IMG/VR virus record: IMGVR_UViG_3300042566_000746
Coordinates: 1 to 23,479 of that record
Strand: one strand, 5' to 3'
Source: a virus
DNA: 23,479 nucleotides
Shown: positions 4,689 through 22,792 of the stretch, in pieces
How positions within the stretch are numbered: position 1 is the first letter of the stretch
Layout: every line of letters begins with the position of its first letter
Position numbers and translations under genes: made by a program
Notes under the pieces: generated by a model
Database searches by the model: none
Seen by the model: only the letters and a program-made list of their open reading frames with translations
Told to the model about the DNA's origin: nothing

Positions 4689-7183
4689 CAAGAGAAAAAT
4701 GAGTCAAGGTTTACAGTTTTTTCCACATTCCACCCAATTGCATCAAGAATAATCTTGAGTGGTTCTAGAAATGCTTTCTCAAATTGTAGGTCATAATCAA
4801 TGTATTTGTCAAGATTAAGTTCCTTTGGAAACTCTTGGATAAAAGAGATAATATTTTCGTGAATACTATTTGGTTTTTTTAGATAGATAAATTTAATCTT
4901 TTCACCATTTTGAATAAGAGAATACTTATTTGTAAGATTTGCTTCCTTTATATAATGATTGAAAAGAAGTGCCCCACGAACATGAATAGGAGTTCCTTTT
5001 GCATAAATTGTTGCCGATGATTTGTATTTTTGAACATCAGAGGCTGAACGAGGAAATGAAATTTGTTCTGGAGGAAGTTTTTTAAACTCCTTACGAGCAT
5101 TCTCAATGAAGTCAATCACCTCATCTTCAGTTCCACTCATCATTAGTTTGAGTGCGTCCTTAATCATTTTACGACAAGGTGCAGGAGTAGAAGATTTGAC
5201 TGCCTCAATACCCATCATCTTGAGTTTGGGTTCTTCATAGCGAACACCCTCACTATCCCAGACATTGAGGATATAACGCTTCTTAGCAGTCCAGATTCCA
5301 CGGTCAGCAATGTTCTCTCGCTTCATCTGCATCTTCTGATCATATGCATTTACATAATTCGCCAATTCTTGGTAAGAACCTTCAATATATTTTTCAAGTT
5401 CCATACCAGCGACCTTATCAAGGAACGAAACAACGCTTTCAGTAGTTTTTTCTCTTCCCTTGTATACAGTCTCCACCAAAGGACCCATATTAAGGTAAAT
5501 AGAATCAGTATCCGAAGCAATAACGTAATCAACAGCATTTGTCTTAAGAATTTTGTTTAGATAAGTATTCATCTTACCTTCAATCCAACGGATTGAAACT
5601 TGTCCTGAAAGAGTGATTGCCTCAGCATTCTCCAATTTATAATAGCGAAAATACTGATTACCAATGGCACCATAAGCAGAGTTAAGAGAAATCTTCTTTG
5701 CCATTTGAATGTTATTGCAACGAGCAATTTCTTTAACCAATTCTTTATTTTTGGTTTTCTCATACTGCTTCTTTGCTGCAATCATCTTCCTTTTAAAGAT
5801 GACACGATCCTCATACATCTTCTCCATTAGTTCTGGAAGAAATCCACGTACATCCTTACGGAACATTGCACCATTAGCACAGACTGCCTTATCTTTGTAT
5901 AATTCAAAACTAAGAGATTGGTTTAGAATTTTATCTACAGATACTGTGGGATGACGTTCATCAAGAAGAGTTTCTGGAGAAATATTGTATTGCATAATCA
6001 GGTGTGGATATAGACTGTTAAGGTCAAAGTTCACAACCCAATCATACTTACCAGGTTTTGGTTCTTTTACATAAGCACCTGCATATTTCTCATTCTTCTG
6101 AGATTTGTTCTTAGGGGGAATAACAATATTTCTCTTTTTGAGATAGTTGTAGATAATATTATCCCACATACGAACCTGATAGAACACATCAGCATAGTTC
6201 ACCTTAGCGTCATATGCCATCGTAAGAGCAAGTTCAATCAACTTCATCTTGTCTTCCAAACGGTCAACGAGTTCTACGTCAACGATGTTGTACTCAATAA
6301 ACTTTTGCCAGCCCTTGGTATAGAAGTCTTTAAAAGTATCAAACTCGGAGTGGTCAAGTTTTTTCTGACCTAGTTCTACTTCAGCAATATAATCAAGACG
6401 ATAAGATTCTTGTGCTTTATAGGTAAACTTCTTATAGAGATCCAAGTAGTCCAATTGAGTTACGCCACCAACATCAAAAGAAGTATGCTTGCGACCATTG
6501 ATATAAATCTCACCTTCGGTCACGAGACCCCAAGGAGAAAGACGCTTCATCAACTTTTCACCAAGAACTCGATTAAGTCGTTTAGCAATATATGGAATGT
6601 CATATAGTTGAATATTCCAACCAGTAATAACTTCTGGAGTATTTTGCATCCAATAGTGGATAAATGAGTTCAAGAGAGCATACTCAGATTCGCACAAGTT
6701 ATAAGTAACGTCATTGCGAGTATTATTAAATGGTTTAACTCCCCAAGTAATAATTTTCTTTGTAGTATAATCCTGAATCGTAATTGCAAGAATTTCTTCA
6801 CAGCAAGATTCGACATCAGGGAATCCTTGCTCCGAAGCAACCTCAATATCCAGAGTTACAAGTTTAATTTTGGTAATATCAAACTTAATTTCATCCTCTG
6901 GATATTTTTCTGAAATGTATTGGTAGATATAACGGTCATTTCCGTAAATCTCAAATCCATCTACACCTTCATATTTGCTATAAAACTCACGACAATCCCT
7001 AACAGTTCCAGGTTGAACTGGTTCTACAGGTTCGCCACTTAATGTTCTATACTTGGATTCTTTTTTAGTTTTTACAAAGAGAGTTGGAAAGAACTCATCT
7101 CTCGTTTCAAAGTGTTGCCCATTGTCATAACCACGAACCAAAAATTGATTTCCAATCAATTGAACATTAGTATAAAATCTCAT
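4688..7183 (-). CDS. gp43: DNA polymerase, family B, T4 gp43 type
   Basis: This 831-residue replicative polymerase has an intact 3'-5' proofreading domain and polymerase domain. Exo I is LDIEVA with D112 and E114, Exo II has N190 and D195 (TGWNIQLYDIPY), and Exo III is Y298 and D302 (YNIVD). Polymerase motif A is FDLNSLYPH (D387), motif B is KKISLNSAYG (about 496-505) and motif C is SDTDSIY with DTD at 558-560. It is a little shorter than T4 gp43 (898 residues). No intron, intein or split is seen, although polymerase genes are frequent targets of these. The ATG overlaps the stop of the preceding small gene (ATGA). It works with gp45, gp44/62 and gp41. Confidence 0.97.
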   Translation of the reverse strand: MRFYTNVQLIGNQFLVRGYDNGQHFETRDEFFPTLFVKTKKESKYRTLSGEPVEPVQPGTVRDCREFYSKYEGVDGFEIYGNDRYIYQYISEKYPEDEIKFDITKIKLVTLDIEVASEQGFPDVESCCEEILAITIQDYTTKKIITWGVKPFNNTRNDVTYNLCESEYALLNSFIHYWMQNTPEVITGWNIQLYDIPYIAKRLNRVLGEKLMKRLSPWGLVTEGEIYINGRKHTSFDVGGVTQLDYLDLYKKFTYKAQESYRLDYIAEVELGQKKLDHSEFDTFKDFYTKGWQKFIEYNIVDVELVDRLEDKMKLIELALTMAYDAKVNYADVFYQVRMWDNIIYNYLKKRNIVIPPKNKSQKNEKYAGAYVKEPKPGKYDWVVNFDLNSLYPHLIMQYNISPETLLDERHPTVSVDKILNQSLSFELYKDKAVCANGAMFRKDVRGFLPELMEKMYEDRVIFKRKMIAAKKQYEKTKNKELVKEIARCNNIQMAKKISLNSAYGAIGNQYFRYYKLENAEAITLSGQVSIRWIEGKMNTYLNKILKTNAVDYVIASDTDSIYLNMGPLVETVYKGREKTTESVVSFLDKVAGMELEKYIEGSYQELANYVNAYDQKMQMKRENIADRGIWTAKKRYILNVWDSEGVRYEEPKLKMMGIEAVKSSTPAPCRKMIKDALKLMMSGTEDEVIDFIENARKEFKKLPPEQISFPRSASDVQKYKSSATIYAKGTPIHVRGALLFNHYIKEANLTNKYSLIQNGEKIKFIYLKKPNSIHENIISFIQEFPKELNLDKYIDYDLQFEKAFLEPLKIILDAIGWNVEKTVNLDSFFS

Positions 7184-7443
7184 TCCTTAATAAGGTCCTC
7201 GTATTTTTCAAGAAGTGTGGGCGTTGGATCTGCAAGAGTCAAAATCTTATCAGAGCTCATCATAAATGTTTTTTCTTTTGTATATCCACAAAGAAAGGGT
7301 TCAAGAGTTTGATCATTTTTTGCTACAAACGGATTGATCAATTTACAATCAGGTTCGCCAATATCTGCACCAACTTCTTCAATCCGACTGATTAGAATCA
7401 GTTTGTCCATCAGTACTATTACTTTGATCGTTTGGTTTTCCAT
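7180..7443 (-). CDS. Small beta-rich conserved phage protein (paralogue 2 of 3)
   Basis: This 87-residue protein (from MENQTIKVIVLMDKL) shares its layout with the genes at 7379-7762 and 19890-20285: an N-terminal strand pair, a central NPF element, an EPFL strand, and a C-terminal MSSDKILTLADP strand followed by L..KY. The start at 7443 keeps the first strand, which aligns with IKLMLLKSGEDLI of its neighbour, at the price of a 65-base overlap with that gene. An AGAGG lies 12 bases before this ATG. A later ATG at 7410 would shorten the overlap to 32 bases but lose the strand. The spacing of strands suggests an Sm-like small barrel; this is inference. It is coupled to gp43 by an ATGA overlap. 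Confidence 0.7.
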   Translation of the reverse strand: MENQTIKVIVLMDKLILISRIEEVGADIGEPDCKLINPFVAKNDQTLEPFLCGYTKEKTFMMSSDKILTLADPTPTLLEKYEDLIKE

Positions 7444-7762
7444 AGTTAATAACATCCTCTAAATACATTTCTTTAAGTTTAACTGTTGGTTCAACCATCG
7501 TAACCAACCAATCGGCAGGAATGGGAATTTGTTCATCAGCAGAAAGTGGCATCCAGGGATACAAAGATACTTGGAATCCCGCTTTTTTATTATTACCTTC
7601 ACTTTCTTCTTTAAGAAGATTTGAATTTCCCATACGAACAAGACAAGGTTTGGTGAGATAATATCCAACAACCCTGCGTTGCTCTTCCTCACCAACAACC
7701 ATTTCCGAAATATCCGCAATCAGGTCTTCTCCTGATTTTAAAAGCATCAATTTAATAGTCAT
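7379..7762 (-). CDS. Small beta-rich conserved phage protein (paralogue 1 of 3)
   Basis: The 127-residue product has an N-terminal core and a disordered Asn/Ser/Gln-rich tail that overlaps the next gene. Key elements are LKSGEDLIADI, YYLTKPCLV, VSLYPWMPLSAD, and IPADWLVTMVEP followed by a helix. The same sequence of elements occurs in the other two small proteins listed here. I recall such proteins next to gp43 in cyanophages, always uncharacterised. A GGAGG lies 12 bases before the ATG, a slightly long spacing. It is the first gene after the terminator at 7794-7834 and so probably opens the polymerase operon. Confidence 0.75.
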   Translation of the reverse strand: MTIKLMLLKSGEDLIADISEMVVGEEEQRRVVGYYLTKPCLVRMGNSNLLKEESEGNNKKAGFQVSLYPWMPLSADEQIPIPADWLVTMVEPTVKLKEMYLEDVINYGKPNDQSNSTDGQTDSNQSD

Positions 7763-7858: not shown

Positions 7859-7996
7859 TTATCTCTTTCTTTTGAACTTACAAACTTTCTTTCCAGGAAG
7901 CATTTTATATGTTGTAGTTCCTGCCCAACCACACTTTGCTTTTGGTGGTTTTGCATCTGAGCCAAAATCACCCTTCATCTCCTGAAGTATTTGCAT
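7859..7996 (-). CDS. Tiny basic protein with two cysteines, 45 aa
   Basis: The frame starting at 7996 reads MQILQEMKGDFGSDAK and then a conserved-looking basic core (CGWAGTTTYKMLPGKKVCKF) before ending at a TAA. AGGA four bases before the ATG at 7996 favours that start; a second in-frame ATG at 7978 would give 39 residues. The gene overlaps the 3' end of hsp20 and finishes shortly before a terminator. I do not know its function. Its charge (Lys/Arg-rich end) and Cys pair would suit nucleic-acid or metal binding, but this is a guess. Confidence 0.55.
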   Translation of the reverse strand: MQILQEMKGDFGSDAKPPKAKCGWAGTTTYKMLPGKKVCKFKRKR

Positions 7997-8447
7997 GAAT
8001 TCCTGAAACGATTTCATAAACCTTCTTCTTCTGATGTTCTGGAATAACTCTATTTAGTTTAATAGTAAGTAATCCATCAACAAAAGAAACATCCTTAACT
8101 TCTACATCATCAGATAAAGTCCAAGTACGAGTAAATGCTCTCTTAGCAAGTCCTTGATGTAAATATTCCTCGCCATCATCATCAGATTTCTTTGCTTCCA
8201 CAAAGAGTTTATTCCATTCTGTAGTAACTTCAATTTCTTCTCGCTTAAATCCAGCAAGAGCAATTTCCAATCTAAAAGTAATACTATCTTCTTTTACTAG
8301 ATTGTATGGTGGATAATTTGTATGTGTCTCAAACGCACTATCAAACCTCCGAAACCACTCATCCATTCCAATACTATTTTTTTGAATATCTAACAAGTAC
8401 TTTGCAGTATCTGGTACAGAAAGCGTAACTGAATTTGTTCCGAACAT
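7968..8447 (-). CDS. hsp20: Small heat-shock protein, Hsp20/alpha-crystallin family
   Basis: This 159-residue chaperone has an N-terminal arm (1-42), a YPPYNL entry into the alpha-crystallin domain, the ALAGF and REEIEV strands, GLAKRAFTRTW, VDGLLTIKL (a variant of the family A-x-x-x-G-V-L signature) and a C-terminal RVIPE resembling the I/V-x-I anchor. sHsps hold unfolding proteins in an ATP-independent way and are common in cyanophages. An upstream in-frame ATG exists at 8498, but the start at 8447 is chosen because GGAGG lies six bases before it. That Shine-Dalgarno sits in a small hairpin described separately. The gene stands alone between two terminators apart from the tiny gene at its end. 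Confidence 0.93.
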   Translation of the reverse strand: MFGTNSVTLSVPDTAKYLLDIQKNSIGMDEWFRRFDSAFETHTNYPPYNLVKEDSITFRLEIALAGFKREEIEVTTEWNKLFVEAKKSDDDGEEYLHQGLAKRAFTRTWTLSDDVEVKDVSFVDGLLTIKLNRVIPEHQKKKVYEIVSGIHANTSGDEG

Positions 8448-8450
8448 AAT

Positions 8451-8504
8451 AGACCTCCATGAGCGTCTTAGTAGTGATTGGACCCTTTCGGCATCCACTA
8501 CTAA
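8451..8504 (-). promoter_or_regulatory. Structured hsp20 leader, candidate RNA thermometer
   Basis: On the minus strand the last leader hairpin (8468-8451) is AGAC-G-CTC-ATG-GAG-GTCT: seven pairs with one bulged G and a 3-base loop, with the GGAGG Shine-Dalgarno inside its 3' arm. Upstream, 8468-8476 and 8496-8504 form a perfect 9-bp inverted repeat (TTAGTAGTG). A small, imperfect hairpin that hides the ribosome site of a heat-shock gene is the layout of known bacterial thermometers, including that of cyanobacterial hsp17. The function is inference. Confidence 0.45.
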
Positions 8505-8519
8505 TTATAAGAGATTATA
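8504..8519 (-). promoter_or_regulatory. Candidate hsp20 promoter, two overlapping-phase TATAAT boxes
   Basis: TATAAT occurs twice on the minus strand, at 8519-8514 and 8509-8504, directly after the regA terminator. No good -35 box is seen at 16-18 bases for either. The upstream box would give a transcript carrying the whole leader structure. Confidence 0.35.
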
Positions 8520-8545
8520 AAAAAAGCGGGATGTTGTTTCCCGCT
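8519..8545 (-). terminator. Rho-independent terminator after regA
   Basis: AGCGGGA (8525-8531) and TCCCGCT (8539-8545) form a 7-bp stem with a 7-base loop, followed on the minus strand by a run of seven T. It starts five bases after the regA stop codon. It would end the gp45-gp44-dam-gp62-regA transcript. Confidence 0.85.
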
Positions 8546-8550
8546 CCTTT

Positions 8551-8997
8551 TTATTCGGTTTCCTGGGTCTTACCCTTTTTACCAATATTATATTTTTGTT
8601 CTAGAATCCAATCACCTTTGTCCTTGTAAGCAAGAACTTTGATTTGATTAAGAGGAGCAATATCGGCAACTGAATCTGGATTCACTACCGTAATAAGACC
8701 CCAATCAGCAAGTAAGCGAGCAATACGATTACGACGCTGAACATCATTGACTGTAAGATTCGCATGTTTACCGTCCAGAGCAAACAACTCCTTAAAGTGA
8801 ACAATATAATAACGCCCCTGCTTATGCAGAATATGGCAAGACTGATAGAGTTTCTTCTCTTTACGCGATGCAACTCCAATGCGAGTTAAAGTCTCACGGA
8901 CCTTCAGAAAGTCGTCGGGTTCATTAAGAATCACCTCTACCATTTGATCCTGAGACCAATGGACTACAGGTTCTACTGTTTGTTGGGCAGTAGTCAT
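8551..8997 (-). CDS. regA: RegA translational repressor
   Basis: The 148-residue protein matches T4 RegA over its central part: DDFLKVRETLTRIGVAS, LYQSCHILHKQGRYYIVHFK and LLADWGLI all have direct counterparts. RegA binds AU-rich sequences around the start codons of early mRNAs, including those of clamp and clamp-loader genes and its own, and blocks ribosome binding. An extra N-terminal stretch of about 20 residues (MTTAQQTVEPVVHWSQDQ) and a Lys/Glu-rich tail make it longer than T4 RegA (122). The ATG overlaps the gp62 stop (ATGA) and has GGAGG seven bases upstream. It ends the clamp-loader operon at a terminator, as in T4-type gene order. Confidence 0.95.
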   Translation of the reverse strand: MTTAQQTVEPVVHWSQDQMVEVILNEPDDFLKVRETLTRIGVASRKEKKLYQSCHILHKQGRYYIVHFKELFALDGKHANLTVNDVQRRNRIARLLADWGLITVVNPDSVADIAPLNQIKVLAYKDKGDWILEQKYNIGKKGKTQETE

Positions 8998-9374
8998 TTT
9001 TTTCCTCCAATATCAAGTCTTTGTTTGATGAAAGCAATTTGTTCTTTTGATAAGATTTTCAGAGCTTGGGATGCCTTTTCATTACTATAAGAATAATAAC
9101 TTTTTACACATTCTAAGTCTGTGACTTTATCCTTGCGGAGCCAGGGAGAAAATCTCTTCCGTTTCCTAAGACTATTTAGATAAAACGAATATTGCATATC
9201 TTTATCAAGTTGATGATGAATATTCATTTCATTTGTAAAGAGGATACAGTCAATATGCCCAGATAGACATCGATTGATAATATATGGAGCATACTCCCTT
9301 TTTACATTTGGGTCCGCTTCCATCAAATTTTCTTTTGTAAAATTAATCGAATTCAACCAATCCTTCAGTTCCAT
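8994..9374 (-). CDS. gp62: Clamp-loader small subunit, gp62
   Basis: This 126-residue protein is the small subunit that joins the gp44 tetramer to load the gp45 clamp at primer ends. The recognition rests on cyanophage-type gp62 features such as MELKDWLNSINF, INRCLSGHID and SLRKRKRFSPWLRK, and on its place directly upstream of regA. It is much shorter than T4 gp62 (187 residues), which is usual in cyanophages. It has no Walker motifs, as expected. The start overlaps the end of dam by 10 bases, and the stop overlaps regA. Confidence 0.88.
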   Translation of the reverse strand: MELKDWLNSINFTKENLMEADPNVKREYAPYIINRCLSGHIDCILFTNEMNIHHQLDKDMQYSFYLNSLRKRKRFSPWLRKDKVTDLECVKSYYSYSNEKASQALKILSKEQIAFIKQRLDIGGKK

Positions 9375-10207
9375 AACAAATCTTTATTATAATTAAACAG
9401 CAAAAGTTCCTTTCTTTCTTTTTGCTCTCGCATATATTCACCAACGGAACGCATCGTATAAGTCAGATCAAACTCACCCATCTTCCAGTTCTTGAAGCGA
9501 TCTTTAACCAGTTGATCTGAGTTATAACTTATTAGTTGGTGCATATAACAAGCATAGCAATCAGAAGCAAACTTATCGTGATCAAATCCTTTGTGCATTG
9601 ATCCCTTACGCCCATAGAGATTATCCTTAATATCATAAGGAGGATCAAGATACATAAAAGCACCCATGTTTCCATCCATCAGATAATCATAAGAGTAATT
9701 AGTTATACGCCACTTAGAAATTAGTTTTGAATACTCTGGCAGTTTCTCAATTCCTCGCAATGAAAAATTGCTTTGTGATGCTTGAGCAGAAAATGATGAA
9801 CTTTCTGTGAGACCAGAGAATGAACATTTATTGACAATATAGAAAGCAACAGCACGATCAAGACTTGATATCTCTTTTTCATTTACATGTTCCTTCGATT
9901 TGAGAAAAAGTTCTCTCGCAAGTTCAGGAGTATTGTATGCAAGTTTACAATCAGATAATTCATTCTTCAGGTCATTCCCAAACATCTGGAGTTGTTGCCA
10001 GAAGTTTACCAGTGGCTCATAAAGGTCATTTACCCAAATATCCAAACTGGGATACTTCTTTGTGACATAGATTGCAACACTTCCACCACCAAGAAATGGT
10101 TCACGGAATTCATCGTAGTTTCGTAGGTCGGGGAAGTAAGGTCCCATTTTTTCACAAGCACGGGACTTGCCCCCAGGATACCTCAAAGGAGTTTTAAGAG
10201 ATTTCAT
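9365..10207 (-). CDS. dam: DNA adenine methyltransferase, D12/Dam class
   Basis: The 280-residue enzyme would transfer a methyl group from SAM to N6 of adenine. It has the D12-class N-terminus TPLRYPGGKSR (6-16), SAM-binding motif I as EPFLGGGS (36-43), and catalytic motif IV DPPY at 188-191. This is the same class as E. coli and T4 Dam, which act on GATC, but the target cannot be read from sequence. It lies between gp44 and gp62, which are adjacent in T4; its ATG overlaps the gp44 stop (ATGA), so it is fully built into the operon. No restriction gene is nearby, so it is an orphan methylase, perhaps protecting phage DNA. Confidence 0.93.
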   Translation of the reverse strand: MKSLKTPLRYPGGKSRACEKMGPYFPDLRNYDEFREPFLGGGSVAIYVTKKYPSLDIWVNDLYEPLVNFWQQLQMFGNDLKNELSDCKLAYNTPELARELFLKSKEHVNEKEISSLDRAVAFYIVNKCSFSGLTESSSFSAQASQSNFSLRGIEKLPEYSKLISKWRITNYSYDYLMDGNMGAFMYLDPPYDIKDNLYGRKGSMHKGFDHDKFASDCYACYMHQLISYNSDQLVKDRFKNWKMGEFDLTYTMRSVGEYMREQKERKELLLFNYNKDLLWN

Positions 10208-19889: not shown

Positions 19890-20285
19890 TTAGCTACTCT
19901 TAAAGATCTTCTCTAGTATCTCTTTAGCATCATTAACATTAGAGATATATCCCATTCTACGATTTATCTTTGATTCTTTATTCTTTTGTTTGTAGCTAGA
20001 ACGAATATAACTTTGATACATCATAATCATTTCTATATCTGAAGACTCACTCATTGTAAGTACATCTTCAAGGTTAAGAATAAACATATCCTCAGTGGTG
20101 GTTTTTAACCAAGGTTCTATCTTATATCCAGTTACACCACTAACTCTTCCCTTTATTTCAGAGATAACAATCGGATTAGAAACAATAAGCATTGTTCTAT
20201 CATCTTCTTCTGATGCTGCTACTTTTGCAAATATTTCTTCACCTGTTTTTAATTTAAGAGTGCAATAAAAATCTTCTTCTATCAT
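19890..20285 (-). CDS. Small beta-rich conserved phage protein (paralogue 3 of 3)
   Basis: This 131-residue protein repeats the layout of the two small genes before gp43: LKTGEEIFAKV, a central SNPIVI strand, GYKIEPWL, a strand MFILNLEDVLTMSES, then a helix ending MMYQSY. It has an additional basic C-terminal tail of about 40 residues. The match LK-G-E / PWL / VLTM-E in the same order and spacing suggests descent from a common ancestor. An Sm-like barrel is one possible fold. Its ATG overlaps the uvsW stop (ATGA). It ends just ahead of the gp55 promoter region, where only a 12-base palindrome and a weak hairpin could act as terminator. Confidence 0.75.
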   Translation of the reverse strand: MIEEDFYCTLKLKTGEEIFAKVAASEEDDRTMLIVSNPIVISEIKGRVSGVTGYKIEPWLKTTTEDMFILNLEDVLTMSESSDIEMIMMYQSYIRSSYKQKNKESKINRRMGYISNVNDAKEILEKIFKSS

Positions 20286-22726: not shown

Positions 22727-22736
22727 CTTTTTTAAA

Positions 22737-22743
22737 TATTTAG
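22737..22743 (-). promoter_or_regulatory. Candidate late promoter for gp3, CTAAATA
   Basis: CTAAATA on the minus strand resembles the late -10 element used by T4-like cyanophages. It begins just after the T-tract of the gp23 terminator and would give a very short leader before the gp3 ATG. No -35 box is expected for such promoters. Confidence 0.5.
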
Positions 22744-22745
22744 AT

Positions 22746-22773
22746 AAAAAAAGGGACCCTTTTGGGGTCCCTT
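22746..22773 (-). terminator. Strong rho-independent terminator after gp23
   Basis: AAGGGACCC (22751-22759) and GGGTCCCTT (22765-22773) form a perfect 9-bp stem with a 5-base loop. On the minus strand it is followed by seven T residues. It starts about 20 bases after the gp23 stop codon and insulates the capsid gene. Confidence 0.9.
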
Positions 22774-22792
22774 CAGAATTTGTGAGAAAGAC

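Follow-up and report, generated by a model that had tools for sequence, protein, structure and literature searches.

The window, that is, the whole stretch of 23,479 nucleotides analysed here, is a fragment of a T4-like cyanophage genome, in which matches to Pfam and PHROG identify minus-strand genes for RegA, gp62, gp44, gp45 and the major head protein. A gene for a small heat-shock protein (sHsp), hsp20, lies downstream of regA, and the following features were found at this locus:

7968..8447, minus strand: hsp20, IbpA-type small heat-shock protein, 159 aa (Pfam PF00011 HSP20, E=1.3e-15; PHROG 432, E=1.5e-53)
8447-8445, minus strand: start codon ATG of hsp20 (sequence)
8454..8458, minus strand: Shine-Dalgarno (SD) sequence GGAGG of hsp20, 6 nt ahead of the ATG at 8447 (sequence)
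8451..8468, minus strand: P2, ribosome-site hairpin AGAC[G8464]CUC-AUG-GAGGUCU, 7 pairs and one bulged G, dG37 -4.8 kcal/mol (predicted fold)
8479..8497, minus strand: P1 core UGGAU[G8492]CC-GAAA-GGGUCCA, stable hairpin with a bulged G and a tetraloop (conserved pairing; model R1, 19.1 bits, E=3.8e-4)
8468..8504, minus strand: outer 9-bp stem, arms 8504-8496 and 8476-8468 (sequence, predicted fold)
8502..8509, minus strand: late-promoter-like box TATAATTA (T4 consensus TATAAATA), 9 nt ahead of the bulged G of P1 (motif scan)
8519..8545, minus strand: intrinsic terminator AGCGGGA...TCCCGCT with a T-run, separating regA from hsp20 (sequence)
8551..8997, minus strand: regA, translational repressor, upstream neighbour outside the element (Pfam PF01818, E=1.3e-45)

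The gap between regA and hsp20 is thus occupied, in this order, by the terminator (8545-8519), the TATAATTA box (8509-8502) and the leader. Several other features of the neighbourhood were recorded. A gene for a D12-class adenine methyltransferase (9365-10207, minus strand; Pfam) is located between gp44 and gp62, in the clamp-loader operon. Two neighbouring, overlapping ORFs (7180-7455 and 7379-7762, minus strand) each match DUF6561 (Pfam), and an ORF at 19890-20285 (minus strand) looks similar by eye. The 3' end of hsp20 is overlapped by a 52-aa ORF (7859-8017, minus strand) without a Pfam or PHROG match. Just past the major head protein gene there is a strong, terminator-like palindrome, GGGACCC..AAAA..GGGTCCC with a T-run (22728-22785), which is also the second-best match in the window to the covariance model R1 described below.

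The original prediction, made from the letters of the window, was that an RNA thermometer controls hsp20. The structures that it named are present: an imperfect 7-bp hairpin with one bulged G at 8451-8468, the GGAGG (8458-8454) in the 3' arm of this hairpin six bases ahead of the ATG, and, directly upstream, a perfect 9-bp stem at 8468-8504, formed by TTAGTAGTG (8504-8496) and its perfect complement CACTACTAA (8476-8468). A8468 is common to both hairpins. The predicted fold of the leader contains P2 and the 9-bp stem; inside 8504-8468, the 9-bp stem faces a competing pairing, the P1 core (8497-8479), which is the part that is conserved. The folding energy of the 121-nt leader is unremarkable when compared with shuffles (z=-0.18), so the single-sequence fold provides no evidence beyond chance.

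To assess conservation, hsp20 loci were gathered from IMG/VR and from named isolates, and 205 distinct leaders were extracted. One of the locus-fetching queries was an improvised Hsp20-like bait and not a database sequence; the loci themselves come from public records. Leaders were scanned with a finder that requires, in each hairpin, a bulged G between pyrimidine-G/C pairs and, in P2, the SD; it rewards pairing and therefore favours the structure, and the same finder was used on the controls. Both hairpins were found in 180 of the 205 leaders, versus none of 250 leaders of other genes from the same loci (the sole listed match, the window's own hsp20 read from L081, was discounted) and 0.15% of shuffles in which the SD was preserved. 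A P2-like hairpin was present in 189/205 hsp20 leaders versus 9/250 other-gene leaders (10 were listed, one being hsp20 itself). The two-hairpin leader is kept in nearly all examined relatives, marine as well as freshwater, and the expectation that related phages with hsp20 would also keep the hairpin is thus borne out. We conclude that a conserved RNA structure that hides the SD almost certainly lies ahead of hsp20.

Two variants of the layout were seen. Five distinct hsp20 leaders (L194, L195, L196, L199 and L201) keep a P1-like hairpin, with CUGUCU replacing the YGCU anti-SD and a different P2 design. The hsp20 leader of the jumbo Pseudomonas phage Deifobo (L173, 234-298) has GAGUGCC-GGGCUC and CUUGCGUAAAGGAG; its Hsp20 is ~28% identical to that of the window, and no relatives turned up when the Deifobo protein was used as a query. 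Judging from the Deifobo leader sequence, the P1/P2 layout may extend beyond T4-like phages.

When a plain MAFFT alignment of 57 leaders was analysed with RNAalifold, almost no structure was found, because the SD arms shift and the loops vary. The leaders were therefore aligned by bulged-G anchors and padded with N. In P1, several pair types occur at each of the outer pairs 2 to 8, the hairpin's own arms pair over 5.4 contiguous bases versus 2.1 for swapped arms, and the loop varies across hsp20 leaders (GAAA, UUCG and others). In the clade to which the window belongs, two sister types have both bases exchanged at P1 pairs 2, 4, 5 and 7, and the loop switches between GAAA and UUCG. Among 26 distant leaders, 61 cells were changed on both sides, versus 21 in shuffles, and the covariation score was 0.443, versus 0.179 for shuffles and no more than 0.134 for slid structures, in a structure-built alignment that favours the structure. 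P2 varies little, because the SD is fixed, and most of its covariation comes from a few lineages. The [G]CU of P2 pairs with the AG of the SD, and the outer arm has changed on both sides: GAC/GUC in the window's clade, CUC or CUU/GAG in most leaders, GAU/AUC in DSL-LC02, CAC/GUG in S-TIM5 and UUC/GAA in L105. Changes in the arms are thus compensated in P1 and in the outer arm of P2, as the prediction had anticipated.

A covariance model, R1, was built from the 26 distant phage leaders, the window's clade being left out; its anchor-based alignment favours the structure, and its E-values are rough. On the 23-kb window, the best match of R1 was the hsp20 leader (19.1 bits, E=3.8e-4), mainly via P1. 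A strong best match was obtained in 14 of 18 other phage records (E from 1.9e-4 to 1.5e-11), one per genome, and it was located just ahead of hsp20 wherever its position was checked. R1 misses S-TIM5 and Deifobo and is weak on HTVC008M; in DSL-LC02, its sole match lies away from hsp20. R1 also matches bacterial ibpA leaders, including that of E. coli ibpA (E=0.018), which no pattern had pre-selected.

The closest Rfam family is ROSE_3 (RF02523), which aligned over its full length to several phage leaders, with a top score of 34.8 bits (E=0.0015). The window leader alone scored 10.6 bits, below the gathering score of 43 bits, and its link to ROSE_3 therefore rests on intermediates; an Rfam scan over the whole window gave no thermometer match. 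Leaders of Pseudomonas ibpA that had been picked out with a DNA pattern scored 65-71 bits. The pattern, GGATGCC-GGGTCC-CTYGCT, when searched in bacterial and archaeal genomes, was located directly before an Hsp20 gene in 29/80 of the matches listed, and among these 29, the loci with a given lineage are from Pseudomonadota. Because the P1 sequence is fixed in the pattern, the matches tell where such elements are located and not how frequent they are.

ROSE thermometers of proteobacterial ibpA genes have been proven experimentally in Pseudomonas, where the element consists of two hairpins in a 61-62 nt leader, hairpin II (-4.1 to -7.6 kcal/mol) melts and hairpin I stays closed, and deletion of the bulged G represses the gene and abolishes heat induction (PMC3669281). 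The phage element shares with ROSE_3 and the Pseudomonas ibpA leaders two hairpins in ~60 nt, a P1 of the form GGAUGCC-loop-GGGUCC, a P2 that sets the SD against a YGCU strand with a bulged G, and a position ahead of an IbpA-type sHsp gene. Features that define the ROSE class are found in the window leader too: it occupies the 5' UTR of an sHsp gene, directly before hsp20, its 3'-proximal hairpin sequesters the SD (P2, 8468-8451, contains GGAGG), and its upstream hairpin, P1, is stable and conserved with covariation. It differs in that phage leaders score below the gathering cut-off, the bacterial genes are under sigma-32 whereas the phage gene has a late-promoter box, and the phage element is carried by viruses of cyanobacteria. 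The U(U/C)GCU anti-SD motif with a bulged G, present as UUGCU or UCGCU in most phage relatives, is ACGCU in the window, with an AGAC/GUCU clamp; YGCU and the bulged G are retained, and the first U is replaced by A, which pairs with U. From its sequence, the window leader would hence be a variant of the ROSE class that departs from the consensus (ACGCU for UYGCU). The CUCGCU...AGGAG core of the E. coli ibpA ROSE element is identical to that of most cyanophage leaders, but the E. coli leader is longer and contains multiple hairpins; its function in vivo is proven according to the work cited in PMC3669281.

Two further thermometers were compared. The hsp17 thermometer of Synechocystis (PMC4477652) likewise conceals the ribosome site of an sHsp gene in a hairpin, but it is a single hairpin with an internal 1x3 bulge, in which the start codon is also paired, in a stem separate from that of the SD, and it contains no ROSE motif. 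The window leader forms two hairpins, with the start codon unpaired in the fold, and an hsp17-type thermometer was rejected. A phage-borne leader thermometer is known from SP-beta blyA (PMC10586365), but that one is of the FourU class and belongs to an autolysin gene, not a chaperone gene, of a Bacillus prophage. In the open-access literature searched, there was no mention of a thermometer in cyanophages, and the control of hsp20 in T4-like cyanophages is unstudied there.

In a quick tree, a branch with an SH-aLRT support of 100% separated the phage Hsp20 proteins and ROSE-led proteobacterial IbpA from 27 cyanobacterial sHsps, nearly all from the host family. Only one of 31 sHsp leaders from the cyanobacterial host family contains a P2-like hairpin, with start codons that were picked automatically and may be wrong in some cases, and R1 gave chance-level matches only on 151 host-family genomes. 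Given the split between host and phage proteins and host leaders that lack the element, gene and leader are of proteobacterial type. The claim of an RNA thermometer thus stands as regards structure, conservation and the match to a class proven in Pseudomonas; the proposed parallel with cyanobacterial hsp17 does not, the relatives being proteobacterial ROSE elements and 30/31 host leaders being without the hairpin. In a separate count, 73 of the 151 genomes of the Synechococcus sp. UW140 family (L441), whose completeness is not given, were without an HSP20 match; many likely hosts may be without any sHsp while their phages carry one.

A box matching TATAAATA with at most one mismatch was found upstream of P1 in 80/185 leaders, versus 18 in shuffles, and in 78 of these 80 leaders it is 8-12 nt from the bulged G of P1. 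With the spacing usual in T4, transcription in the window would start at the first G of P1, near 8496. Since the promoter box and the 5' arm of the 9-bp stem overlap, the main transcript probably begins with the P1 core. That arm would accordingly be promoter DNA for the most part, and the 9-bp stem is probably confined to read-through RNA.

Together, these results make it probable that 8504-8448 (minus strand) is a short RNA thermometer of the ROSE type that controls translation of a phage IbpA-like Hsp20. In the mechanism that we propose, a T4-type late promoter would start hsp20 mRNA at or near P1, a stable 5' hairpin that probably aids folding and stability. P2 pairs the SD with an anti-SD strand broken by one bulged G, leaving a helix that is only marginally stable. 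In cool cells P2 would block ribosome binding; warming would open P2, and Hsp20 would be made. Temperature is likely the main input. In favour of this scheme, P2 of the window (-4.8 kcal/mol at 37 °C) is close to the last hairpin of E. coli ibpA (-4.6 kcal/mol) and within the range of working Pseudomonas thermometers. At 37 °C, P1 has a stability of -6.4 kcal/mol for the window core and a median of -8.3 kcal/mol. Against the scheme, P2 of typical marine phages is weak (medians of -1.9 and -1.1 kcal/mol at 37 °C), and such hairpins may be leaky even in the cool. Most marine values fall between -1 and -2 kcal/mol at 37 °C and are near -4 kcal/mol at 15 °C, which would fit cooler working ranges.

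The leader may also respond to a protein, either alongside heat or in place of it. In E. coli, IbpA acts through its ROSE-type leader to repress its own translation, for which Arg93 is needed (PMC10474464). If phage Hsp20 likewise bound its own leader and repressed its own translation, unfolded or aggregating proteins, e.g., capsid protein late in infection, would titrate it off, and the leader would be a sensor of chaperone demand. An Arg occupies the position equivalent to Arg93 (R103 in the window) in 42/43 Hsp20s of phages, in 28/28 bacterial sHsps with a ROSE leader and in 0/27 host sHsps, whose leaders are without the element; the Tyr34 position is Tyr or Phe in all phages, and the late-promoter box is in keeping with synthesis at the time when virions are assembled. 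However, the Arg difference tracks a single split of the tree, phage and proteobacterial IbpA versus host, and therefore counts as one event, and Lys98 of IbpA, also needed in E. coli, is not retained in phages. Among the phage proteins, Hsp20 of S-ShM2 has already been studied in vitro (PMC5028025). We regard such feedback as quite possible, if somewhat short of an even chance. Because phage Hsp20 retains the arginine that IbpA needs for self-repression, feedback by Hsp20 has to be taken seriously as a complement or an alternative to direct heat sensing, and the suggestion that the phage tunes chaperone synthesis independently of any protein regulator is doubtful.

A static structure, in which P1 merely stabilises the 5' end and P2 is a fixed brake that lowers Hsp20 without sensing anything, is unlikely. 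P1 is indeed stable and located at the expected 5' end, and nearest-neighbour folding from 5 to 50 °C predicts that accessibility of the window SD hardly changes, the site being closed to 50 °C. However, the same folding also keeps the SD of E. coli ibpA, a proven thermometer, closed to 50 °C and fails to reproduce melting there; because of this, it cannot decide the thermometer question. In addition, highly divergent leaders retain the bulged G and the [G]CU/AG core, with changed pairs around them, and the Pseudomonas element is no longer induced by heat once its bulged G is deleted (PMC3669281).

The hairpins could instead be an operator for RegA, the repressor encoded just upstream, regA being the upstream neighbour in the window, S-CAM1, DSL-LC02, S-CAM7, ACG-2014f, S-PRM1 and S-SSM7. 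This is very improbable: in S-SSM5, P-SSM7, P-RSM6, P-TIM40, S-IOM18 and ACG-2014b the element stays with hsp20 and regA is elsewhere, the other phage leaders (0/250) lack the element, and bacterial ibpA genes are preceded by it too. A RegA operator, which would be expected at the known RegA target genes 44, 45 and 62 or in company with regA, is thus largely refuted. That the palindromes are promoter or operator DNA, as overlap of the late-promoter box with the 5' arm of the outer stem might suggest, was rejected as having next to no likelihood, since the GAAA/UUCG tetraloop swap, the bulged G and G.U pairs in P1 and the SD/ATG spacing indicate RNA.

The ROSE-type thermometer thus remains the preferred reading of the hsp20 leader. 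A wider proposal, which we put forward tentatively and rate slightly below feedback as such, is that the proteobacterial unit of ROSE and IbpA is a core module of T4-like phages of cyanobacteria and Pelagibacter that senses chaperone demand in virion assembly: Hsp20 would repress its own mRNA via P1/P2, unfolded phage proteins would release it, and temperature would be a second input. T4-like cyanophages are among the most abundant marine viruses, and hsp20 is one of their core genes (PMC3037559). Being conserved and of a proven thermometer class, the leader would directly link water temperature or folding stress to synthesis of a phage chaperone. The phages have also brought an RNA regulator of proteobacterial type, together with its cognate sHsp, into cyanobacterial cells that do not have this element at their own sHsp genes.
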